Assembly (NCBI RefSeq): GCF_000195295.1
Contig: NC_015388.1
Span: 682,001 to 746,000, forward strand
Direction: 5' to 3'
From: Desulfobacca acetoxidans DSM 11109
GTDB taxonomy: Bacteria; Desulfobacterota; Desulfobaccia; Desulfobaccales; Desulfobaccaceae
Length of the DNA: 64,000 nt
Shown here piece by piece: positions 3,235 through 53,225 of this stretch; within the stretch, counting starts at the first letter, position 1; each line of letters starts with the position of its first letter. The position numbers were made by a program, and so were the translations under genes. Under the pieces are notes generated by a model. That model was not told the origin of the DNA, searched no databases, and saw nothing but the letters and a program-made list of their open reading frames with translations.

Positions 3235-3329
3235 TGGCGGAAGTGCATGGGAATCGAACCCACCCATCGCCTCGCGACGATACACCGGATTTGAAGTCCG
3301 GGGGCCCCACCAGTGAGCCTTGCACTTCC
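3235..3329 (-). tRNA. selC: tRNA-Sec (anticodon TCA)
   Basis: Read on the minus strand, an 8-base acceptor arm GGAAGTGC pairs with GCACTTCC, followed by G73 and an encoded CCA. The anticodon loop CTTCAAA carries TCA, which reads UGA. The extra arm is long, as expected for tRNA-Sec. The whole gene is 95 nucleotides with CCA. Its presence means the organism can insert selenocysteine. SelA, SelB and SelD are not in this window and no clear selenoprotein was found here. Confidence 0.95.
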
Positions 3330-40963: not shown

Positions 40964-41087
40964 CGGAATATTCAATTTCGGCGAATACCATAGCTGATTG
41001 TGGAAGAATGGTGGATAAACGGTGAACTTGGAATTACCACCAAAATAAGCCGCACCAAGGCCATAAATTTACTTGGGCGCATTTTTT

Positions 41088-42362
41088 ATGACGCATAACC
41101 AGCTTGATTTATTCTCTGTCGGACCCTGTAATCTGCATTGTTCTGAGGCGGAGTTTGTCGCTGAAATTGAAAAGTTTGATGAGTTCGGCAAGGCAACCCA
41201 AGTTTTTGTCTTCCCCGACCAGGCAGTCAACATTCCGGTCTATATTAATGAATTCTGGACTGCCAAACAGCGGGCGGCCCATTCTCTGCACGAAATATCG
41301 TATCGGGCCTGTTTTAAACCGCAGTTGCCGCGATTTTTTATCGAGCGCCTGACGCGCTTGGGCGAAGTGGTCTACGACCCTTTCATGGGGCGGGGCACCA
41401 CCCTGATTGAGGCGGCTCTGTGGGGGAGGGTGCCAATCGGCTGCGATATCAACCCCCTGAGTGAGATACTGATACGTCCCCGATTAAACCCACCGGATAT
41501 TTCAGAAGTGAAATCCAGGCTTACTGCTATTGATTTTAATCAGCCGGTTGACATCTTGGATGACCTGCTGGTTTTCTATCACCCTGAGACCCTGCGCGCC
41601 ATCACCAATCTGCGCACTTATCTGTTAGAGCGGGCCGGGGGAGGTGAGCTTGATCGGATCGATGCCTGGATTCGCCTGGTGGCCACTAACCGGCTGACCG
41701 GGCATTCCAAGGGATTTTTTTCTGTCTATACCATGCCGCCCAATCAGGCGGTGTCGGTGGCGTCACAGCAGCGGATTAATGAAAAACGCCAGCAAATCCC
41801 GCCCTGGCGAAATGTTCCGGATATTATCCTAAAGAAAAGCCGTTCCCTGCTGGGCAAATTGACGCTTTCAGACCGGCAGGCCTTGAAAGAAAACGCCCCC
41901 CATGCCCTCCTGCTCACCGGCTCGGCTGAGAATACTCCCGCCATCCCGGATCAGACCGTGTCTTTGGTCGTCACCTCTCCACCCTTCCTTGACATTGTCA
42001 ACTATCAGACGGATAATTGGCTCAGGTGTTGGTTCAATGGCCTGGACGCCTCCCAGGTCCGGATCTGGCAGGTGAAAAGACCACTGGAGTGGCAGGAACG
42101 GATGCAGCAGGTCTTTGCCGAACTGAATAGAGTCTTAAAGCCTGGGGGCCATGTGGCCTTTGAAGTGGGCGAGGTTCGAGGGGGGAAACTGCTGTTGGAA
42201 ACTTTGGTGGTGCCTGCGGCTCAGGCAGCCGGACTGAAGCCTCTCATGGTTATCATCAACAATCAGGCCTTTACTAAGACTGCCAATTGCTGGGGAGTGG
42301 ACAATCTCAAGAAAGGGACGAATACCAATAGGATCGTGCTTTTGAAAAAAAACTGCTTATGA
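41088..42362 (+). CDS. Amino-type DNA methyltransferase
   Basis: About 424 residues. The SAM-binding motif DPFMGRGTTLIEAAL near residue 90 is preceded by a motif X-like segment (FWTAKQRAAHSLHEISYRA). The catalytic motif VTSPPFLDIVNYQ lies near 300, so motif I precedes motif IV. SPPF is commonest in N4-cytosine enzymes, but N6-adenine cannot be excluded. The C-terminal end (LNRVLKPGGHVAFEVGEVRGG) is a standard methyltransferase strand-helix. The ATG at 41088 is preferred to a TTG at 41073. No restriction endonuclease is adjacent. The stop overlaps the next start by 4 bases, so it heads a coupled four-gene operon. Confidence 0.85.
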   Translation: MTHNQLDLFSVGPCNLHCSEAEFVAEIEKFDEFGKATQVFVFPDQAVNIPVYINEFWTAKQRAAHSLHEISYRACFKPQLPRFFIERLTRLGEVVYDPFMGRGTTLIEAALWGRVPIGCDINPLSEILIRPRLNPPDISEVKSRLTAIDFNQPVDILDDLLVFYHPETLRAITNLRTYLLERAGGGELDRIDAWIRLVATNRLTGHSKGFFSVYTMPPNQAVSVASQQRINEKRQQIPPWRNVPDIILKKSRSLLGKLTLSDRQALKENAPHALLLTGSAENTPAIPDQTVSLVVTSPPFLDIVNYQTDNWLRCWFNGLDASQVRIWQVKRPLEWQERMQQVFAELNRVLKPGGHVAFEVGEVRGGKLLLETLVVPAAQAAGLKPLMVIINNQAFTKTANCWGVDNLKKGTNTNRIVLLKKNCL

Positions 42363-42709
42363 GAACCAAACCCGATAAAAATAAGCGACCCCAGGAACTT
42401 TCTCAGGCTCAGATTTTAAACTTATTGAGAGAACTACTACCTAAGTTACGAGAAAAGTATGGTATCCAAAGGTTGGCTCTTTATGGTTCCTTTGCCAAAG
42501 CAAGGTCTCATGGGCAGAGTGACGTCGATATCCTGGTGCACCTGATAAAACCCCTGGGGTTTGATTTTATCGCTTTAGCTTTTGATTTGGAAAAGGCTTT
42601 GGGTCGCAAAGTTGACCTGACGACTTTCGAAACCCTGACCCGAAGTGAGGCAAATCCTCGCCATCAGCCTATCGTGCGGGATATTAAAAAGTCACTCATT
42701 TATGTCTAA
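42359..42709 (+). CDS. MntA-like nucleotidyltransferase
   Basis: A 116-residue minimal nucleotidyltransferase. The motif GSFAKARSHGQSDVDILV fits GS-x10-DxD, the catalytic pattern of MntA antitoxins, which attach AMP to HepT to silence it. KVDLTTFETL supplies the later strand. The start overlaps the methyltransferase stop (ATGA) and the end overlaps the HEPN gene by 8 bases. Confidence 0.85.
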   Translation: MRTKPDKNKRPQELSQAQILNLLRELLPKLREKYGIQRLALYGSFAKARSHGQSDVDILVHLIKPLGFDFIALAFDLEKALGRKVDLTTFETLTRSEANPRHQPIVRDIKKSLIYV

Positions 42710-43055
42710 ACGCCGTGACCACGATTACGTGCTGGATATTATTGAGGCCTTAAATCGTCTCGAGGCTTATACGGCCGATTTATCCTATGAGGAATTCTGG
42801 CATGATACCAAAACCCAGGATGCGGTTATACGAAATATCGAGGTCATCGGTGAGGCGGTTAAAAACCTGTCTCCTCGGTTGCGAAGAACTTCTCCCCAGA
42901 TACCCTGGAGGGATATGGCCAGGGCTCGGGATAAGTTGATTCATCACTATTTTGGTATCAATTATGAGATCGTTTGGACTATCGCCACTGAAGAACTCAA
43001 AACGTTGCAAGCCAAAATTGAGGCAGTTCTTACCGACCTGAGGCAGGAAAAATGA
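42702..43055 (+). CDS. HepT-like HEPN ribonuclease toxin
   Basis: A 117-residue helical protein of the HepT/DUF86 family. The motif RDKLIHHYFG gives the Rx4HxY signature of HEPN RNases, and VIRNIEVIGEAVKNLS is typical of the group. It would be neutralised by the MntA-like partner encoded just upstream. The ATG at 42702 was chosen because the frame upstream is covered by the nucleotidyltransferase gene. Its stop overlaps the next start (ATGA). Confidence 0.86.
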   Translation: MSKRRDHDYVLDIIEALNRLEAYTADLSYEEFWHDTKTQDAVIRNIEVIGEAVKNLSPRLRRTSPQIPWRDMARARDKLIHHYFGINYEIVWTIATEELKTLQAKIEAVLTDLRQEK

Positions 43056-43932: not shown

Positions 43933-44013
43933 GGGAAAAGGACGGTTCGGAAAAGAAATATTTCTTTAGTGTGACCTTTTGCTTATTAGTTGTCAACTAC
44001 TAAAAAACATTTT

Positions 44014-44045
44014 TGGCGGAGGGGGTGGGTTTCGAACCCGCGTGG
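44014..44045 (-). repeat. tRNA-Ser 3'-end remnant (candidate att site)
   Basis: These 32 bases match the 3' end of the tRNA-Ser(CGA) gene at 53132-53163 in the same orientation with only two differences (CCA end, acceptor strand and T-arm). One difference breaks a T-stem pair, so it is not a working tRNA. Direct repeats of a tRNA 3' end are the usual footprint of integration, so this marks the left end of an island whose right end is the intact tRNA. Confidence 0.75.
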
Positions 44046-44482
44046 TTGAGAATCGCCTGGCAGGAACTGGGCGTCAAAGGGGCTCCTGAAACTAGTGATA
44101 ATTTGCGGATAGTAGAATACTTGGAAGCCACGCCCCTGGGTCGGCCGGGAAATGAGAATAACGAAACACCATGGTGTTGTGGTTTCGTGAATTGGGTACT
44201 CAAACAGGCCGGCATCGAATCCCGGACCAACTCCGCCTGGGCTCGGTCCTGGCTCAATTGGGGCGTCGCTGCCGACGAGCCGATACCGGGGACCATCGCG
44301 GTCTTTTCCCGAAAAGCTAACGCCGGGCATGTGGGCTTCTACCTGGCCGAAGACGCCACCCGCATCCAGGTCCTAGGCGGCAACCAGGGCAACGCCGCAA
44401 CCATCGCCTGGTTCCCCAAGGCTAACCTCTTGGGGTATCGGGAGCGACAAGGCTGGACGGTGCCAACGAGAAAGTCCTGTTT
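44046..44482 (+). pseudogene. Endolysin-like (TIGR02594-type) fragment fused to the tRNA remnant
   Basis: The frame encodes WLRIAWQELGVK, then ETPWCCGFVNWVLKQAG with a candidate catalytic Cys, ARSWLNWGV, PGTIAVFSRK and GHVGFYLAEDATRIQVLGGNQ with a candidate catalytic His. This is the pattern of TIGR02594/CHAP-like peptidoglycan hydrolases from phages. The domain begins exactly where the tRNA repeat ends, with no proper start codon; the frame continues into tRNA sequence. After GYRERQGW it runs into unrelated sequence. It looks like the last piece of a phage lysis module. Confidence 0.65.
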
Positions 44483-44593
44483 ATGGTTATCGGGGCCTTA
44501 TCTTCTATCGCCACTTCAGTGGTGGGGTATTATTTTGGTAGCTCGGAGAGGAGTGCCAAGAAAAATGAATTAGTACAAAACAAAAAATTTTAA
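44483..44593 (+). pseudogene. Holin-like C-terminal fragment
   Basis: Thirty-six codons from an ATG give one membrane helix (VIGALSSIATSVVGYYFGSS) followed by a charged tail rich in Lys and Glu. This resembles the last helix and tail of phage holins. It lies out of frame at the end of the endolysin fragment, so a deletion probably joined the two. Confidence 0.45.
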
Positions 44594-44712
44594 TCTATCT
44601 AGACACCTGCTAAATAGATTTCCTAAAACCTTCTTTGCTCTTTCCATTTAATGAGCCTGCTTTCAAAAAGCTGGTGTTGTCTATCTTCCTTTTAAAGTTG
44701 GGCGAAATTTTA

Positions 44713-44749
44713 TTGACTTCATTTAATTGTGGTATTATAATTACCACAA
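44713..44749 (+). promoter_or_regulatory. Promoter with palindromic operator for the HTH-ImmA operon
   Basis: TTGACT (44713-44718) and a perfect TATAAT (44736-44741) are 17 bases apart. The -10 box is enclosed by an 8-base perfect inverted repeat, TTGTGGTA (44727-44734) and TACCACAA (44742-44749). A repressor bound there would block the polymerase, most likely the HTH protein encoded next. Confidence 0.75.
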
Positions 44750-44802
44750 AGAGAAAATTGATAATTTTGCAAAGCCATGGAGGCAACGGTGAGGAGGAAG
44801 AA

Positions 44803-45177
44803 ATGTTTGGCGAATTTATTAAAAGGAGGAGGGTCAGTCAGGGCATAACGTTAAGGGAATTTTGCCGAAGGCTGAATGTGGATGCCAGCAATTGGAGCAA
44901 GGTCGAGAGAGGTTTGCTCTCACCTCCTCAGGATGAGGAAAAGCTCCAGGAAATAGCCCAGGTCCTGGAAATCCCCTTAAACTCTGACTCTTGGAAAGAA
45001 CTGCGGGACAGCGCCAATATTGATGCAGGACTGATCCCCAAAGACATTTTATCAGATCAACAGATAGTCAACGCCCTACCAATGTTTTTTCGCACCATCA
45101 GGAGCGATAAACCCACACAAGAAGAACTGGAGGTCCTCATAGAAATCTTAAGAAAGGATAAAGATATTGAACTATAA
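44803..45177 (+). CDS. XRE-type HTH regulator
   Basis: A 124-residue DNA-binding protein. The helix-turn-helix ITLREFCRRLNVDASNWSKVERG occupies about residues 14-37. The C-terminal half is helical and acidic. The ATG at 44803 has a GAGGAGG site 6 bases upstream; the open frame before it covers the promoter and is not coding. It overlaps the ImmA/IrrE-type gene, a pairing typical of mobile-element control modules in which the protease cuts the repressor. Confidence 0.85.
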   Translation: MFGEFIKRRRVSQGITLREFCRRLNVDASNWSKVERGLLSPPQDEEKLQEIAQVLEIPLNSDSWKELRDSANIDAGLIPKDILSDQQIVNALPMFFRTIRSDKPTQEELEVLIEILRKDKDIEL

Positions 45178-45802
45178 GGATTTTAGGTGTGCCTGGATTG
45201 ACAAAAAAATCATATGGGATATTGCCGATCGGGCAAGAGATGAGCTTTGGGCCAAAGAAAAACTACCCATAGATATGGAGGAAATAATTGAATTAAAACT
45301 GCAGCTTAATGTTGAACCGACCCATGGTCTGTTAAATCTAATTGATATGGATGCTTACTTGAAAATGGATTTAAGCGGCATCGTAGTTGACTATGATTCC
45401 TACATGGAAGCAAGATATGCCAACCGTTTGAGGTTTTCTTTAGCGCATGAACTTGGGCATTATATTCTTCATAAGGATGTTTACCTGAAATTAAACCTTA
45501 CTTCCGCCGAAGAATGGAAAAATTTTATCATAAATGTACCAGAGGACGAGTATGGCGATTTCGAGTGGCAAGCGAATGAATTTGCCGGTCGTTTCTTGGT
45601 ACCCCACAATTTTCTCAAAGCTCGGCTGGATGGAGTAATAAAGCTGATTAAACAGAATAAAGAATTGACAACGTATCTGAAAAAAGACCCTGATGCAGTT
45701 CTTTCTCGGGTGTCTCCTGTACTCCGAAAGCCTTTTGGAGTTTCGGAAGAAGTTATTGAACGCCGGCTCAAAAGGGAAAATCTCTGGCCTCCTGATTTCT
45801 GA
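45167..45802 (+). CDS. ImmA/IrrE-type metallopeptidase
   Basis: A 211-residue protein with the zinc motif AHELGHYILH (HExxH) near residue 91 and the accessory segment WQANEFAGRFLVP near 140. This is the ImmA/IrrE domain (DUF955) that cleaves a partner XRE repressor. The start is TTG at 45167 with AAAGGA upstream, overlapping the HTH gene by 11 bases. The AT-rich composition fits mobile DNA. Confidence 0.85.
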   Translation: MNYKDFRCAWIDKKIIWDIADRARDELWAKEKLPIDMEEIIELKLQLNVEPTHGLLNLIDMDAYLKMDLSGIVVDYDSYMEARYANRLRFSLAHELGHYILHKDVYLKLNLTSAEEWKNFIINVPEDEYGDFEWQANEFAGRFLVPHNFLKARLDGVIKLIKQNKELTTYLKKDPDAVLSRVSPVLRKPFGVSEEVIERRLKRENLWPPDF

Positions 45803-45833
45803 AAGATATAAAATTTAAGAGTAAAGGGTACCA

Positions 45834-46451
45834 ATGACAGGAATAGAAATTTTTTTTACTGCATTAGGTTCTGTAGTTGCGGCTTTATTAGCGGCGTATT
45901 TAGGCGGAAGATATACTTTTAGAGCAGTTGAAAAAACATTTGCAAAAAATTTAGAACTGCAGAAGGTCAATCAGGAAAATATTATAAAGGCTTTGCTACA
46001 GGCAATTCACGACGAGATTGAAACTTTATGGGAACATTACTCAAGTGAATTAGGTGCGAAAATTGATTCCTTACCAGATAATCATCCTTTAAATTATTTA
46101 TTTCCAATACTTCAAGACTATTTTACAATATATACTGGCAATGCAATATTAATCGGCCATATATTTGATGTTGAATTGCGCAAGTCAATTGTTACAACGT
46201 ATACAAAAGCTCGCGCTATGATAGATACAATAAGGTTAAATAATGAGTTAGTTCAAAAAAATGAATTCTGGTTTAGGCTCTATCAGCAGTCTAAAGACCC
46301 CACCTTAGCAAAAAATGTTGATGATTCATGGACCTTATTAATAGAATATGCAAAGGTAATAAAAAAATATCATGCAGATATGAAAATAACTGTTAATGAT
46401 TTGCTGAGGAAGTTAAGGAAGACAGGGGTTTTATATCAAGAAAGACAATAA
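45834..46451 (+). CDS. Membrane-anchored hypothetical protein
   Basis: A 205-residue protein with one N-terminal membrane helix (FFTALGSVVAALLAAYLGG) and a long helical cytoplasmic part with no cysteine. It is distinctly AT-rich and Asn/Lys/Ile-rich, unlike the core genes. It lies 31 bases after the ImmA-type gene, so it may be controlled with it. This anchor-plus-helical shape occurs in phage and defence accessory proteins, but I recognise no family. Confidence 0.65.
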   Translation: MTGIEIFFTALGSVVAALLAAYLGGRYTFRAVEKTFAKNLELQKVNQENIIKALLQAIHDEIETLWEHYSSELGAKIDSLPDNHPLNYLFPILQDYFTIYTGNAILIGHIFDVELRKSIVTTYTKARAMIDTIRLNNELVQKNEFWFRLYQQSKDPTLAKNVDDSWTLLIEYAKVIKKYHADMKITVNDLLRKLRKTGVLYQERQ

Positions 46452-46581
46452 AATCCCTTATAACTATCCCTTGAAGTCTCGGTCTAAGATGGCAGTGAGA
46501 AGAGAGATCAGATCGAAGGCGGGCTGGAGCTAAGATCAATATATCTCAGATTTAGAATATAAAGATAAGGAGAATTTGGTC

Positions 46582-46911
46582 ATGGGTGAAACCGAGAGTC
46601 ACAAGAAAGCAAAAACCAAAGCCGCCGGAAAAAAAGGGGAAACCGAAGTTCAGCTTTCAGGGAATCGTCGCCTTGATGCCCTGACGGCAAGTGGTAAACG
46701 TGCAACTGAGATTGAACGTAGCGGAGATGCCGCAAAGTTGGAAAAGGCGGCACGCCGGCTCAAGGCTTCTGAAGCGCCCCAGAAGGTACTTAAAGTTCCG
46801 CAGACGGATATGGATGTCGCTGTGGCAGCCATGCGCGCTATCGGTGTTTCGGGCAACGTAGAGAATCTTAGTGGGACTAAAAGCAAAAAAATTCGGATTT
46901 CAAAAAAATAA
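46582..46911 (+). CDS. Small basic hypothetical protein
   Basis: A 109-residue, Lys/Ala-rich soluble protein: SHKKAKTKAAGKKGETEV, GNRRLDALTASGKRATEIER, then VPQTDMDVAVAAMRAIGVSG and a basic C terminus KIRISKK. The AAGGAG site is 9 bases before the ATG. The basic ends suggest binding to nucleic acid. I believe similar proteins occur in scattered genomes, but no function is known to me. Confidence 0.6.
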   Translation: MGETESHKKAKTKAAGKKGETEVQLSGNRRLDALTASGKRATEIERSGDAAKLEKAARRLKASEAPQKVLKVPQTDMDVAVAAMRAIGVSGNVENLSGTKSKKIRISKK

Positions 46912-47056
46912 GCTGACTAATGAGAAATTACCGGAGATTATCAGTATAACGCAAAATTCCAGGTTGCCCCTGAACAAATTCAATCGGTTAGATACGAAAA
47001 ATCACCATCCTGTAGTGTCGGCATATAATACTAAATATATATAATATCTTTATATA

Positions 47057-47084
47057 TTGACAATCTAAGCTACCATGCTATAGT
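47057..47084 (+). promoter_or_regulatory. Promoter of the IS1634-type transposase
   Basis: A perfect TTGACA (47057-47062) and TATAGT (47079-47084) are 16 bases apart. Transcription would begin at about 47091, the ATG itself, so the mRNA may be leaderless. The outer left end of the element may be near TGTAGTGTCGGC at 47011. Confidence 0.5.
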
Positions 47085-47090
47085 GGCGTC

Positions 47091-48503
47091 ATGTACTTGC
47101 GGACGACCACTCGAAAACGGGGCGATAAGATTTATCAGTCCCTCCACATCGTCGAATCTTACCGGACTAAAGAGGGCAAAGTTCGGCAGCGGATTCTGGT
47201 TAACTTCGGCTCGGCTTCGCAATACTCCTCTGAACAAATCCAAGAAATTATCGCAGGATTGAAAATATTCTTTAAACTCGAAGAAGCAAAGCCGCAAGAG
47301 AGCATCCCTCCTACGGGTAGCCTGGATTTCGGCTCCATTTATACCATCTTCCGCCTCTGGGAGGAGATGGACTGGACCCAGGTTTTCAAAAAATTCCTCC
47401 AGGGTAGGCAGTTCGAGTTCGATGTCATTGCCAACCTCAAAGTTATGGTAGCCAAGCGTCTCTTAGATCCCATGGCCAAACTCCACCTCTTGGATTGGCT
47501 CGAGGGGGTGCACCTTCCCGGTATCGACCGGCAGCAGGTTGATTATAATCACTTGTTACGCTCTTTGGACTTTCTCATTGAACACAAAGCAGAATTGGAG
47601 CCCAAACTGGCCTGGCCGATCCTGACCCTCTTCGACGCACCCCTGGACTTGGTTTTTTACGACCTGACCTCGTGCTATTGTGAGATTGAGCGAGCGGATA
47701 AGGTCCGAAATCCCTCCTCCCAATCGGATAAACCGACGTTGCAAAATTACGGCTATGATCGGGACCATTCCGGTTGCCCTCAGGTAGTGCTGGGACTGGT
47801 CATGACCAAAGATGGTATTCCTCTCTGTCATCAGGTGTTTCCTGGAGAAACCACTGATAAAGCGATCTTCCGGAAAGTTATTCTCGATGTCAAAGCCCGC
47901 TTCCCGGTGCAACGCTGCGTCGTGGTCAGTGATCGGGGACTGCTCAGCCAAGACAACCTGGCGGTCCTGGGCGAAGCTCAGCTGGATTATATCGTCGCCC
48001 GGCCTTTGAGGCATAATCTCATCTCCCGGCAGGCCATCCAGGCCACGGCTCAGGATGTTCAGGCACAAATCAAACGGTGGAAGAGTGATGGCACCCCCCT
48101 GGAGGAGCAAGAATGTTTCCGGGAAGTCACCCTTGACGGCCGCCGCTTTGTCGTGGCCTATAAGGCCGAAATTGCCCGGCAGACCAAAAAAACCCGACAG
48201 CGGAAACTGGCCGTAGCCACGGAGTATATCCGGGGTCGCTTGGCTCGCTTGCAGAACCAGGAAACCGGCTTGCACATGCCGGGGAAGACTCTCACTCATC
48301 CGGAAACCCTGGTTCATCTCCACGACTATCTGAAAAAACGGCAACTGAGCCGCTATTATCAACTCAGGCTTGACCAACAGGGCCGGGTGGCCTGTGATCC
48401 GGATGAGGAAAATCGCCGCTGGGAACTGCTCATCGACGGTAAACTCCTCTTGGAAACCACCAACAAAACGCTGTCACCAGCAGAGGTCGTCCACCAATAC
48501 TGA
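47091..48503 (+). pseudogene. IS1634-family transposase, C-terminally truncated
   Basis: About 470 residues. The N terminus YLRTTTRKRGDKIYQSLHIV and QRILVNFGS are typical of IS1634 transposases. Two catalytic aspartates are visible in VFYDLTSCY and VVVSDRGLLS. The reading frame stops at LSPAEVVHQY, before the region that should hold the third acidic residue (Y-R-E-K type motif), so the enzyme should be inactive. The right end of the element is missing and an IS21 remnant begins at once. No matching inverted repeat was found on the right. Confidence 0.85.
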
Positions 48504-48504
48504 A

Positions 48505-48624
48505 GGCGACGGTGGATCTGGAGATAGCACATGATTGAGCGATCTTTCGATTACTTAATCCACAGCTCCATTTTAACCGGAGAATCTCTTTTATCTTACG
48601 CATAGATAATCTCTCTGCTGGCAT
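48505..48624 (-). pseudogene. IS21-family IstA N-terminal fragment
   Basis: On the minus strand an ATG at 48624 gives MPAERLSMRKIKEIL followed by GLSNRKIAQSCAISRSTV, the N-terminal helix-turn-helix of IstA transposases. It is cut after about 40 residues at the junction with the IS1634 remnant. It likely belongs to the IS21-type end repeats at 48960-49066. Confidence 0.75.
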
Positions 48625-49069
48625 ATGCTTCCTCCTATAATAATACAGAGGATACATATCACCGTTGGGTAAATTGACCATCGCCTATATGTTGACCAAG
48701 CCGGTTATTTTCAGGACATTCGCCTGGGTGAAGCAGGCAGCCATTCCAGCCGCCGGCCGGCCAAAGCGGATTCGGCCTGCCGGCACCAAGCGTTTGCGGG
48801 GCAGGCCGAATCCGCCCCTCATGGCACCAATAAACTTATCCCGGCCAAGGCTGGCGGGCTAAGTCCCCAAAGCGCAAACCGCCGCCGGTCAGACTTTATC
48901 TGCGATCGTCATACTCAATGCTTGGGTGATTATATCAGCGTGCTTCGCTTGGGCCGTGCTACAAGAGTTGGCCGGATTCGCCCGGAATCAGTGGCCGCCT
49001 TCCAGCGGAATCAGTGGCCGGATTGAATCGGAATGGGTGGCCGGATTACTCCGGAATCAGTGGCCGGAA
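48625..49069. mobile_element. IS21-type end remnant and intergenic debris
   Basis: No intact gene. A perfect 16-base inverted repeat lies at 48766-48781 and 48800-48815 (GCGGATTCGGCCTGCC and its complement, 18-base loop). From about 48960 a repeat array begins that resembles the multiple terminal repeats of IS21 elements. Short plus-strand open frames here have no protein-like character. Confidence 0.5.
48983..49066 (+). repeat. Four tandem CGGAATCAGTGGCCG motifs at 23-bp period
   Basis: The 15-base motif CGGAATCAGTGGCCG starts at 48983, 49006, 49029 (with GG for CA) and 49052, exactly 23 bases apart. A degenerate copy sits at 48960, and a partial one follows at about 49065. The spacing and position suggest transposase binding sites at an IS21-type end. 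Confidence 0.75.
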
Positions 49070-49759
49070 TCAGTCGGAATATGCAAATTCTAAACACTCC
49101 ATTATTTCATCGATGATATCTGACTGGATATCAAATCCAGGTAATAGGAGTTGTTGCTGTGGGACGCCTATTCTGAATGTCACGGCAAAACTTGCCGCTC
49201 GCGGTATTGACAAATATAATTCAAAACTTTCTTTTATATCTTTTTTAGTTCTCCCTTTTTCCTGGTATGGTCTCCCTGCCTTGCGCTGCGCAGTTCTAGA
49301 TAATAGTGTTTCCGTATACTTAACTCTCTCAACAAATTCATCGCTTTGGGCCATTCCATGGGATACAACCTTACCATCGATAGCAAGCTGAAACTCATTG
49401 GCTTCTAAAGAAATGCCACGCAGCTCCAAGTGCCGGAGAAAATTTATTTGATTAAACAGGTCCCGGAGTTCATCAGCGATTTGGTCCGGGGGATTTCCAG
49501 CAAGTCCCGTTGCCACCAGGCGTTCTGCCTCCCTTAAACAACCACAATCCATTGCTAGGGTGGCGGCACTTCTATGGAGAATCGCACGACTCGGTTCGGC
49601 ACTCAAATCTTTAGCTATCAATTGTGCTGGTTTAAATTCATGTTCAAAAGCCTGTTGAAGCAGGGCCTTTGATTTCTCTAAGTCTCCCTGTAATTTAGCA
49701 GCAAAGGCCAATTCTGCCAGATTCATAGCTTCTCGATGGAGTTGTGTAATACTTTTCAT
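49070..49759 (-). CDS. Conserved hypothetical protein of the HD/YwgA cluster (helical repeat type)
   Basis: A 229-residue protein. The N-terminal third is TPR-like (SITQLHREAMNLAELAFAAK, then LEKSKALLQQAFEHE and ATLAMDCGCLREAERLVATG). The C-terminal part (LRGISLEANEFQLAIDGK, SHGMAQSDEFVERV, RAASFAVTFRIG) looks like a mixed alpha/beta domain. I recall related proteins in cyanobacteria but no function. Its start overlaps the stop of the next upstream gene by 4 bases, and both are on the minus strand. The last codons reach the IS21-type repeats. Confidence 0.7.
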   Translation of the reverse strand: MKSITQLHREAMNLAELAFAAKLQGDLEKSKALLQQAFEHEFKPAQLIAKDLSAEPSRAILHRSAATLAMDCGCLREAERLVATGLAGNPPDQIADELRDLFNQINFLRHLELRGISLEANEFQLAIDGKVVSHGMAQSDEFVERVKYTETLLSRTAQRKAGRPYQEKGRTKKDIKESFELYLSIPRAASFAVTFRIGVPQQQLLLPGFDIQSDIIDEIMECLEFAYSD

Positions 49760-50292
49760 CTTTTCACTATCTGGGAAATAGGTCGGCTGAATTCCACAAC
49801 CACAATATAAGCCGAGTTAAAGCCATCAGATATTTGGGTCTGCTTGATCTTTTTTTTCACCCTCGCCTTTATGGAGCTATCATCTCCTCTACGTATGCCG
49901 GAGACTTCCAAACGAGCCTTATTTTGAAATAACTCCCCGCTGTCATCTCCAATCCAATAATCAAAACCAGTCCCTTTAATTGATCTTTCAATGACTGTTA
50001 ATCCAGTGAGGTCCAGAATTAAGAGAAAAGCTATTCCATAAGCGCCGTGTTCGGTTGCTACTTCTTCATCCTGCCAGGTCCTCCGCATTTGGTCAGTAAC
50101 AGCAGGCCAATATAATGCAAAGATTCTGTTAAATTCGCCATTAATTGTTAGATTAACACCGACGAAATGACCCTGATCTTCCAAACAAATCGCTCCAGCC
50201 TGCATCAAACAAGAGCCAAATTCTGGGGTAAGATAATGAATTTCCTGACACAATCTGGTCAATTCCAACTTTTCCACATCTTCTAATGTCAT
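49756..50292 (-). CDS. Conserved hypothetical protein, partner of the TPR-like gene
   Basis: A 178-residue protein with mixed alpha/beta character (YLTPEFGSCLMQAGAICLED, then HFVGVNLTINGEFN, GFDYWIGDDSGE and RLEVSGIRRGDDSS). The C-terminal region from ERSIKGTGFDYWIG has acidic residues in an arrangement reminiscent of PD-(D/E)xK nucleases (YWIGDD...ARLEVSG), which could make it a nuclease-like protein; this is a guess from motif spacing. It is coupled to the TPR-like gene by a 4-base overlap. Confidence 0.6.
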   Translation of the reverse strand: MTLEDVEKLELTRLCQEIHYLTPEFGSCLMQAGAICLEDQGHFVGVNLTINGEFNRIFALYWPAVTDQMRRTWQDEEVATEHGAYGIAFLLILDLTGLTVIERSIKGTGFDYWIGDDSGELFQNKARLEVSGIRRGDDSSIKARVKKKIKQTQISDGFNSAYIVVVEFSRPISQIVKR

Positions 50293-50408
50293 TCAGGGGA
50301 AATATCCTTTTTCTTGGAACATTTAAAAAAAGTTACAACTCCCCCAAAAGGCCTTAGCCACTAAGTGGGGCGAGGGTAATGGAGACAAATTTCCTTTTTG
50401 CCTCAGCT

Positions 50409-50954
50409 TCAATTAATGTGCACCCTCGCCTCGTTCGTAATACTGTCAATTTCCTCGATAGCATTTTTGGCGCTTTCCAGCGTGATATGTGGCTTCAGTT
50501 CTGTGAGTTCTTCAGCTCTTTCAGCGTTTAAGGTCTCAAAGGTTCTGTTTTTAGTAACATATAATGCCGTAGCCAAACGTTCGAGTTCTGTCACTCCTTT
50601 GTCGCCGAGTATCTCGGCAATGAAAGTAATTTTCTTGTCATACCGTGCAATTGTGTTTGAATATAATTTTTGAATATATTCGTTGAGGTCCGTTGAGGCT
50701 AATCTAGGGCCACACGGCCATCGTGGTTCAAGCTCGATTAGACCATCTGCGCGCAACGCAGTAAGTTCATCTCTCAGGTCGAACGAGAAAGGTCCGTGCT
50801 TGTATAAAATGAAATCAAACTCCATGGGAACTTGCATGAGCTCTTGAAGAAAAAATGTGGCCTTTTGAATATGGGTTTCGCCACACCAGCTCCCTTTTTC
50901 CCGTAATTTATCAATCAGCCTCAGGATTATTGCGGCGTTTTTAATTCTGTCCAT
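50409..50954 (-). CDS. YwgA-like protein
   Basis: A 181-residue protein: LIDKLREKGSWCGETHIQKATFF near the start, then FDFILYKHGPFSFDLRDELTALR and a helical C terminus. This resembles Bacillus YwgA-type proteins, a wHTH-containing family that is often encoded next to an HD-domain protein. It overlaps the HD gene by 14 bases. Role unknown; probably a regulator or partner of the HD protein. Confidence 0.72.
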   Translation of the reverse strand: MDRIKNAAIILRLIDKLREKGSWCGETHIQKATFFLQELMQVPMEFDFILYKHGPFSFDLRDELTALRADGLIELEPRWPCGPRLASTDLNEYIQKLYSNTIARYDKKITFIAEILGDKGVTELERLATALYVTKNRTFETLNAERAEELTELKPHITLESAKNAIEEIDSITNEARVHIN

Positions 50955-52281
50955 TAATATCCTCCTCTCTTTTAGGTAGTATGATTTTATCCCGGATTGC
51001 CTTCAGCCACTCGTCTGCCCTCCCGTATATCTTGCGATCACAAAAGACGTAGTCGACTGAGACGATGGGAACGCTTTTTAATGTATCCGATTTGGCAAGT
51101 GACGAAACAATCTGCCCGCCTCTGAGCCGGACCGGAAAATCGGGAGCACCTCCTTTTTGTGGATAACGGTCACGCCGAAAATGTTCTTCTCCGAACTCTT
51201 GTTTGAGAGCATTGAAGACTGACTGCCCTGCTTCAGGATTGATCCTCACATCATTGGGGTTGCGCTCATAAATCACTTTAAAATGTTCTCGCCGTAGAAT
51301 CCTACGAGCGTGTTGATGAATCGGCCTGCTTTCATCAAACGCTTCTTCCATAAATGCTACTGTAATTTCATTGTCTGTCATTTTAATATGTTGCTGTATA
51401 TCAGTAGAAAATTTGCCATTCTGTAGCCATTCCTTAAGGAAATCCTTTAAATGAATATCATAAATACGACGAACTGGATGACAATAAACTTGTGAATACA
51501 TAAAATAACGTGCTAGCATCAGGGCCTCAGAGGTGTGAATGCCACCTTCTTCAACACCAAGTGCCGGCTCTACTGAAGCCCCTTTTTCGCATGATGGTAA
51601 AAATGATAGAATCCTTAACGTATCTATTAAACGATAGTGATCAAATTTACCGTAAACCACACCAATATGATGTGAATCTCTTAGTAAATAATCCATTCTA
51701 TCAGCACCGAAGGCATCTCCAACAATAATTTCCGATAGAATAGTTTCCCAATCTGTAAATGTTAGGTCCGAAGCCTCCTTTGGGCCCACGGCAAGTTTTG
51801 TAATGTCATTAGCTCTAAGTGGAGGAGTTATACTATTCCATATTTCCTGCATTTCACTACTTTGAATAATCTCACGAGTTAATTTTTCATGGTTCCAACC
51901 TTCAGGTAGTAACTCTTTTTCGGCAGCATGGGAGAATGGAAGATGCCCAATGTCATGACAAAGTGCCGCCATGCGAAGAACAAGCCTCCAATACTGGAGT
52001 TTATTCTGATCTTTTAATTCCGGAAGCAAATTCCTTACATCGTCTGTGACATTATCTGGATTTGTAACCACGTCAAAGATTCGACTAGCGAGTTCCATTA
52101 CCCCCAGGGAATGATCAAAGCGCTTATGGGTGGCGCCGGGATATATGAGGTATGTGAGCGCCAGTTGATGAATATGACGGAGGCGTTGAAAGGGACGGGA
52201 GTCTAAGACTTTCCGCTCCTGATCGTCCAAACGGATGAATACATGAATAGAGTCACGAATCTCATGAATATTTTTAGCCAT
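50941..52281 (-). CDS. HD-domain phosphohydrolase (SAMHD1/dGTPase-like)
   Basis: About 446 residues. Metal-binding motifs are HSLGVMELASRI near residue 58, CHDIGHLPFSHAAE near 108 and the later Asp in GADRMDYLLRDSHHIGV. The DRMDYLLRDS motif is typical of dNTP triphosphohydrolases of the SAMHD1/YwfO type. Such enzymes destroy or regulate dNTPs, and in some phage-defence systems they starve phage replication. The ATG at 52281 was chosen, as the frame upstream covers the HsdS remnant. It is the first gene of a four-gene minus-strand cluster in the island. Confidence 0.82.
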   Translation of the reverse strand: MAKNIHEIRDSIHVFIRLDDQERKVLDSRPFQRLRHIHQLALTYLIYPGATHKRFDHSLGVMELASRIFDVVTNPDNVTDDVRNLLPELKDQNKLQYWRLVLRMAALCHDIGHLPFSHAAEKELLPEGWNHEKLTREIIQSSEMQEIWNSITPPLRANDITKLAVGPKEASDLTFTDWETILSEIIVGDAFGADRMDYLLRDSHHIGVVYGKFDHYRLIDTLRILSFLPSCEKGASVEPALGVEEGGIHTSEALMLARYFMYSQVYCHPVRRIYDIHLKDFLKEWLQNGKFSTDIQQHIKMTDNEITVAFMEEAFDESRPIHQHARRILRREHFKVIYERNPNDVRINPEAGQSVFNALKQEFGEEHFRRDRYPQKGGAPDFPVRLRGGQIVSSLAKSDTLKSVPIVSVDYVFCDRKIYGRADEWLKAIRDKIILPKREEDINGQN

Positions 52282-52283
52282 GA

Positions 52284-52484
52284 TTAAATTTCTCTTACAA
52301 CTCCACACCGGAAGGCCTTAGCGAAGAGCGTCGGGACAAGTGTCGCTAAATCTGCTTCGGTTTCTGCCTGCAGGCGTTTTAACTCGTCGGCTTTGACCTG
52401 GAGGCTGTTCAGATAATCCACAATATAGCGCTGTTCTTGGGGTGGGATTTTTGGCACCTTAAAAGCCCTTAGTTGGCATTGATA
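52284..52484 (-). pseudogene. HsdS C-terminal remnant (type I restriction specificity subunit)
   Basis: One frame reads QLRAFKVPKIPPQEQ, YIVDYLNSLQVKADELKRLQ and EADLATLVPTLFAKAF. This is the conserved C-terminal coiled-coil end of HsdS subunits. It has no start and is out of frame with the HsdR fragment next to it, so it is a deletion product. It ends 3 bases before the HD gene start. Confidence 0.7.
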
Positions 52485-52863
52485 TGCGGTGAATCTGGTG
52501 AATTTTTAGATTAGCCCGACGATCCAAATCTGCTTGGTTGGGAATTCCAAGAACCGGGCGGGCATCGCCGTCGGCGTAATCCCAGAAATAATGCTCCTGA
52601 CCGTTGCTAAGGATAACAAAAGGGGCGGAGAGGGCTTGAGCGTATGCTTTTGCTTGGGTTTTGGCGCTGTAAGGATCGGTGGTAAACCGTTTGGCTTCGA
52701 TTACGGCCAGAGGCTGCGTGCGGGAGTTTTTCAGAAGGTAGTCGGCCCTGCCGTCCGCCGCTGCCTCCTCGGTGGATATCTGGGTTTTATTGTGAATATT
52801 CCAACCGGCTTCTTTCAGAAGCTGATCGATTTTCATCCTGGCGTCAGCTTCCGTAGAGAACAT
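52459..52863 (-). pseudogene. HsdR N-terminal remnant (type I restriction endonuclease)
   Basis: About 134 residues. DARMKIDQLLKEAGW is followed by the endonuclease core GRADYLL...LAVIEAKR, the D-ExK motif of HsdR_N, and SAPFVILSNGQEHYFWD. Full HsdR is about 1000 residues, so the helicase part is gone. It stops soon after YFWD in unrelated codons. Together with the HsdS remnant it marks a large internal deletion of an hsdR-hsdM-hsdS locus. Confidence 0.8.
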
Positions 52864-53131
52864 CCCCGTTTTACCTCATAATAGCGATAGGGCAGCCTTT
52901 GATAATATTTTCACAATACCTTAATCTACCATGTTATCTGGTAGCTAAGAAAATGTCAAAAGAATAACGGGCAGGTCATAAGGCATTTGTTTTACAAAAA
53001 AAGCCGCCCTCCCTGCGGGGGCAATGTTTTTGCATCTCATCAGGGCATGATTTGTGGGGGTCGGAGCCTCTTGGAGGCCTGTGATACTGCCTGATTTTTA
53101 GAAATGATTATTTGATATCATATATAAAACT

Positions 53132-53225
53132 TGGCGGAGGGGGTGGGATTCGAACCCACGTGGGAGTGATGAGCCCCCAAGTCGATTTCGAGTCGACCCC
53201 GTTACGGCCTCTTCGGTACCCCTCC
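53132..53225 (-). tRNA. tRNA-Ser (anticodon CGA)
   Basis: On the minus strand GGAGGGG pairs with CCCCTCC, with G73 and encoded CCA. The anticodon loop CTCGAAA carries CGA, and the variable arm is long. The 3' end of this gene is repeated at 44014-44045, so it is the likely integration target of the island to its left. Confidence 0.95.

Follow-up and report, generated by a model that had tools for sequence, protein, structure and literature searches.

Two independent two-gene modules in a tRNA-Ser island of Desulfobacca acetoxidans: a predicted HD-type dNTPase with a DarG-domain-like partner and a predicted PD-(D/E)xK-like protein with a TPR partner

The four minus-strand genes at 49070-52281 of the window, i.e., the 64,000-nucleotide stretch of the D. 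acetoxidans DSM 11109 genome analyzed herein, are two independent two-gene modules standing side by side as island cargo. Pair 1 consists of a gene for an HD-domain protein (50941..52281; 446 aa from the ATG, with a GTG at 52308 as another possible start) followed by a gene for a YwgA-like protein (50409..50954; 181 aa), and pair 2 consists of a gene for a 178-aa protein, referred to as N178 (49756..50292), followed by a gene for a TPR-like partner (49070..49759; 229 aa). The ORF calls agreed with an earlier note on this DNA in that the HD and YwgA-like genes overlap by 14 bases and the N178 and TPR genes by 4, with a gap of 116 bases between the pairs. The same note had regarded the four genes as one combination, to be given up if the pairs never co-occurred elsewhere. 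In our sample, pairs 1 and 2 were never found together at any other site, and each was repeatedly encountered without the other in the neighborhoods examined, and the four-gene unit was thus rejected. All four genes have homologues in other genomes in the same pair order, indicating that the arrangement within each pair is more than chance.

Pair 1 represents a known kind of enzyme with a suggestive partner, and pair 2 belongs to an unnamed family. As to function, we infer two toxin/restrainer-like modules carried as island cargo, the one combining an HD dNTPase with an inhibitor resembling the C-terminal domain of DarG, and the other combining a nuclease-like effector with a TPR antitoxin or adaptor; we regard the chances of this overall reading as evenly balanced.

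The island at tRNA-Ser(cga)

The four genes lie within an AT-rich stretch next to tRNA-Ser(cga) (53132..53225, minus strand). Since a 33-base copy of the 3' end of this tRNA gene (44013..44045) is 94% identical to 53131-53163, the stretch is most likely a 9.1-kb island (44013-53163) inserted at tRNA-Ser(cga), with the tRNA gene as the integration site and the copy as the far attachment repeat, and no integrase was found within these 9.1 kb. Directly behind the tRNA gene, an N-terminal fragment of the type I restriction subunit HsdR (52459..52863, minus strand; Pfam HSDR_N, E=4e-11) and, on our reading of the sequence, what is probably left of the C-terminus of HsdS, a type I specificity subunit (52286..52458, minus strand), were recognized, in agreement with the island of defense remnants of which the earlier note had spoken. 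Downstream of the four genes are an IS1634-family transposase (47091..48503, plus strand; NCBIfam, E=1.5e-69), a fragment with weak similarity to the N-terminal part of an IS21-family transposase (48430..48681, minus strand; NCBIfam transpos_IS21, E=0.005, a match of just 26 residues), and a set of four 23-base tandem repeats (48969..49083) at the point where the TPR gene breaks off. These repeats probably represent the end of an IS21-type element, and a search of the genome for a complete copy of such an element returned short pieces only.

Several other features were observed in the window. A 110-120 base element at 48735-48855, possibly a small mobile element, has three further copies of 93-95% identity in the same genome. 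At 44635-45802, an HTH protein and the IrrE-like metallopeptidase encoded after it resemble the capH/capP regulators, and other CBASS genes were not seen nearby. Just outside the island, a nucleotidyltransferase ORF overlaps a HepT-like ORF (42359-43055) in the manner of an MNT-HepT type toxin-antitoxin pair. A Type II DNA methyltransferase (41073-42362; full-length PADLOC match, E=6e-271), for which no restriction partner was identified, was also noted. A selenocysteine tRNA is located at 3235-3329.

Pair 1: an HD protein of dNTPase type and its YwgA-like partner

The HD protein scored above the Pfam cut-offs for both PF01966 (HD; 37.9 vs 22) and PF19276 (HD_assoc_2; 54.2 vs 23.1), and its nearest solved structures in a PDB sequence search were 2hek, EF1143 (2o6i; E of about 1e-29), and SAMHD1 (E of about 1e-21). 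The candidate metal ligands H57, H109-D110, and D194 (H...HD...D) are all present, together with H131, and the score for the Dgt-type dGTPases (NCBIfam TIGR01353) was far below the cut-off (34.5 vs 152.35 bits). Judged by its sequence, the protein is thus of the SAMHD1/EF1143/YwfO type, a known kind of dNTP-destroying enzyme, and the earlier proposal of a dNTPase was borne out to the extent that such an activity is predicted.

The YwgA-like identity of the second protein, likewise proposed earlier, was corroborated by an hhalign comparison with a Priestia protein encoded beside an HD gene (91.5% probability). Direct model searches returned DarG, namely the NCBIfam model (E=5e-8, profile positions 170-319) and the PADLOC model (E=2e-9), and two relatives gave E values of 9e-9 and 3e-6 against the former. 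The match covers the full length of the DarG C-terminal domain, and since its score of 32.5 bits is well under the whole-protein cut-off of 250 bits, only this domain is shared. No Pfam match to Panacea (DUF4065) was obtained at E<=1, and no link between YwgA and DarG was found in the literature searched. The pairing itself is well conserved, the YwgA-like gene adjoining or overlapping the HD gene in nearly all Desulfobacterota HD relatives from 198 genomes of the phylum.

Taken together, these features suggest that pair 1 would most likely encode a potentially harmful dNTP triphosphohydrolase kept in check by the small YwgA-like protein. Once set free, e.g., when a phage infects the cell, the enzyme would deplete the dNTPs. 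We propose this restraint by analogy, because the DarG C-terminal domain occludes the active site of DarT (PMC11481870) and the dGTPase of the Clover system is toxic without its restraining partner (PMC12265719).

A serious competitor, to which we assign somewhat less than an even chance, is that pair 1 is an ordinary housekeeping operon of the YwfO/YwgA type for the dNTP pool, captured by the island by chance. Such a role is possible since ordinary genomes commonly contain members of the HD family in its broad sense (10 of 14 controls) and a distant counterpart of pair 1 in Priestia stands among ordinary metabolic genes, in a gene order that we take to be that of the Bacillus ywfO-ywgA region. 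The expectation that widespread housekeeping genes would speak against a specialized system accordingly holds for the HD family at large; it does not hold for the close HD-YwgA subfamily, which is sporadic, YwgA-like relatives having been detected in only 13 of 395 genomes of the phylum, mostly with an HD gene next door. Also against a housekeeping origin, the pair is here located in a tRNA island, and the direct model search pointed to DarG, whereas BLASTP gave no significant match between the Priestia YwgA-like protein and that of the window, the two being related only by profile comparison. If the restrained-dNTPase reading is right, pair 1 would suggest a general design in which a dNTP-depleting enzyme is restrained by a DarG-type domain.

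Pair 2: a strict two-gene family

A protein scan of genome contigs yielded 105 relatives of N178, of which 79 loci were kept, and three loci from viral contigs and four from plasmids were added, so that the family comprises more than 80 loci from many phyla, including plasmids and phages. No relative was found by tblastn in a phage collection; the viral contigs do carry some. None of the Pfam, NCBIfam, PADLOC, or PHROGs models provided an informative name for either protein. In 50 genomes, the TPR module lay directly downstream of N178 in 65 of 67 matches, and the other two were a 39-residue fragment and a match with a weaker TPR hit downstream. These genomes had been chosen for holding N178, which leaves the count of N178 without the TPR module unbiased and makes the 20 TPR matches without N178, some of which are decayed pieces or a further segment within a single ORF, a lower bound. 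An overlap of exactly 4 bases between the two genes was seen in 59 of the 84 loci, and the distances of the two proteins correlate with r=0.88, a value that linked inheritance would produce as well, even by itself. Beyond the pair, neither a conserved third neighbor nor a recurrent surrounding family was found.

The partner occurs in a short form of 113-154 aa (43 loci), a long form of 370-386 aa (24 loci, plus one of 182 aa), and other forms (six loci, one being interrupted by the end of its contig), all of which share an N-terminal helical TPR module. An intact long partner (locus L033; predicted with a pLDDT of 86.4) consists of a TPR-like N-terminal part and a C-terminal beta domain with weak Foldseek matches to IF1, and a PDB sequence search with the TPR partner retrieved mostly designed or consensus TPR proteins. 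A few partners carry antitoxin-like tails with weak scores (DUF2281, E=4.5e-5; VapB, E=1.8e-4). Among the other forms is a fusion of the TPR module with a bacterial sugar transferase, carried by a Hymenobacter plasmid (L004, 6453-7358). In two organisms with large genomes, the module was observed inside larger TPR-array proteins that are not accompanied by N178 (L118, L119, and L120).

The partner in the window proved to be truncated, a point missed by the earlier note. In an alignment with 25 relatives, it could be followed to residue ~225 of ~372 and stopped where the 23-base tandem repeats and the insertion-element remnants begin, so that, relative to the long form, ~145 residues are missing from the C-terminus; no remnant of them turned up at other sites of the genome. 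Because the N-terminal module is intact and the short-form relatives consist of little else, pair 2 of the window may still work in part.

Predicted fold and conserved residues of N178

For N178, a PD-(D/E)xK-like fold had been suspected from the letters alone. A structure prediction, for which the alignment was used without two plasmid-collection sequences, gave an AlphaFold model with a mean pLDDT of 93.7 that supports this suspicion. The succession of a helix (76-96), three strands (99-103, 112-115, and 126-133), a helix (138-155), and a further strand (161-167) corresponds to the order of the PD-(D/E)xK core. The VIA-align matches of the model in the PDB were restriction-endonuclease-like and tRNA-endonuclease folds almost throughout, and the best Z of 6.8, which being under 8 would be weak by itself, is accompanied by a consistent list of folds. 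Viral models agree in kind, and a PDB sequence search with N178 disclosed no convincing relative.

Across 65 sequences, the conserved residues are E81, D111, E129-x-S131, K148, Q151, and E167. Of the acids, D111 and E129 are invariant, and E81 is found in 63 sequences, with D in the other two. The position of the motif lysine, two residues after the second acid, is occupied by S131 in all 65 sequences, and a lysine in the next helix, K148, is conserved in 64. With the motif lysine missing, N178 was filed only as PD-(D/E)xK-like and may be a non-catalytic nuclease fold.

Proposed function of pair 2

Pair 2 would most likely constitute a toxin-antitoxin-like module. N178 would act as a nuclease of the PD-(D/E)xK fold through a cluster of the acids E81, D111, and E129, and the lysine absent from the motif would probably be supplied by K148 of the next helix. 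The TPR protein, coupled to N178 in translation, would bind it and restrain or direct it via the N-terminal module, while the variable C-terminal part would add sensing or targeting. In the present genome, the restraint by the TPR protein may persist with the C-terminal function gone. In its widest form, this proposal makes pair 2 an undescribed and widespread family of nuclease toxins with a relocated catalytic lysine and TPR antitoxins bearing exchangeable trigger-sensing C-terminal domains, spread over many bacterial phyla and phages; we offer this tentatively, as a possibility clearly short of even.

Two other explanations, both of which we hold to be rather unlikely, bear on the same observations. 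N178 could be a nucleic acid-binding protein whose PD-(D/E)xK fold is catalytically dead, the pair then being a regulatory or adaptor module and not a toxin, as the serine at the position of the motif lysine and the many copies standing among ordinary genes would suggest. Against this, E81, D111, E129, K148, and Q151 are almost invariant, which would be unusual for a dead site, and N178 hardly ever lacks the partner, which itself does occur on its own. Likewise, the pair could be an abortive-infection or restriction-like defense module whose TPR partner serves as a sensor activating the nuclease and not as part of a generic toxin-antitoxin system. The variable C-terminal parts of the partner, the sporadic distribution of the pair, and the carriage by phages and plasmids agree with this, one Mu-like viral contig having the pair after a Dam methylase, a SacI-like endonuclease, and AbiV; a second viral contig has it between head and tail (tape-measure) genes. 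However, there was no sign of enrichment beside known defense genes, few defense matches being present among 118 neighbor proteins in a survey without a control set.

Whichever role applies, a family that keeps strictly to its two genes in dozens of genomes from many phyla, in plasmids, and in phages has remained nameless in the model libraries searched, and the definite predicted fold of N178 with its defined invariant residues renders its activity directly testable.

Independence of the two pairs

The gene-neighborhood analysis of all four families, which the earlier note had advised, confirmed that the N178/TPR pair occurs without HD/YwgA. With the window proteins as queries at E<=1e-3, a search that very distant homologues could escape, neither an HD nor a YwgA-like protein was found in the N178 loci from genomes, viral contigs, and plasmids. 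Conversely, neither N178 nor the TPR partner was ever found, except in the window itself, at the loci of the HD/YwgA relatives in the Desulfobacterota genomes, which reach only ~1.5 kb to either side and in which very distant homologues could likewise escape. One four-gene defense system, in which the HD protein depletes dNTPs and the nuclease-like pair is a second effector, is accordingly very improbable and already largely refuted, even though the genes are adjacent on one strand with only 116 bases between the pairs, in an island with restriction remnants.

Comparison with known systems

The HD protein of pair 1 resembles the HD dNTPases of the EF1143/YwfO/SAMHD1 type in having the HD and HD-associated regions with all the expected metal ligands, and differs from them in being paired with a YwgA-like gene of the DarG C-terminal domain type. 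With Clover (CloA dGTPase and CloB nucleotidyltransferase), pair 1 shares the combination of a dNTPase of the HD class and a small neighbor that is proposed to restrain it. In contrast to Clover, the partner is not a nucleotidyltransferase and the HD protein is under the Dgt-type cut-off; instead of standing beside the dNTPase as CloB does, the nearest nucleotidyltransferase ORF (42359-42709) overlaps the HepT-like gene. The likeness to DarTG consists in the match of the YwgA-like protein to the whole DarG C-terminal domain; unlike DarTG, pair 1 has neither a DarT toxin nor a macrodomain, only positions 170-319 of DarG are matched, and the neighbor is an HD protein.

The predicted core topology and the acidic residues of N178 are those of the PD-(D/E)xK nucleases, such as the SPARDA effector nuclease, Hjc, and LHK-Exo, from which it is set apart by the serine in place of the motif lysine, the conserved lysine in the next helix, and the modest best Z. 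Finally, although pair 2 deviates from the type II toxin-antitoxin modules in that the gene of the presumed toxin comes first, the partner is of the TPR type, and neither protein is named by a library model, it has in common with them two small overlapping genes forming a two-gene operon, a sporadic and mobile distribution, and a presumed toxin that is practically never without its partner (65 of 67).
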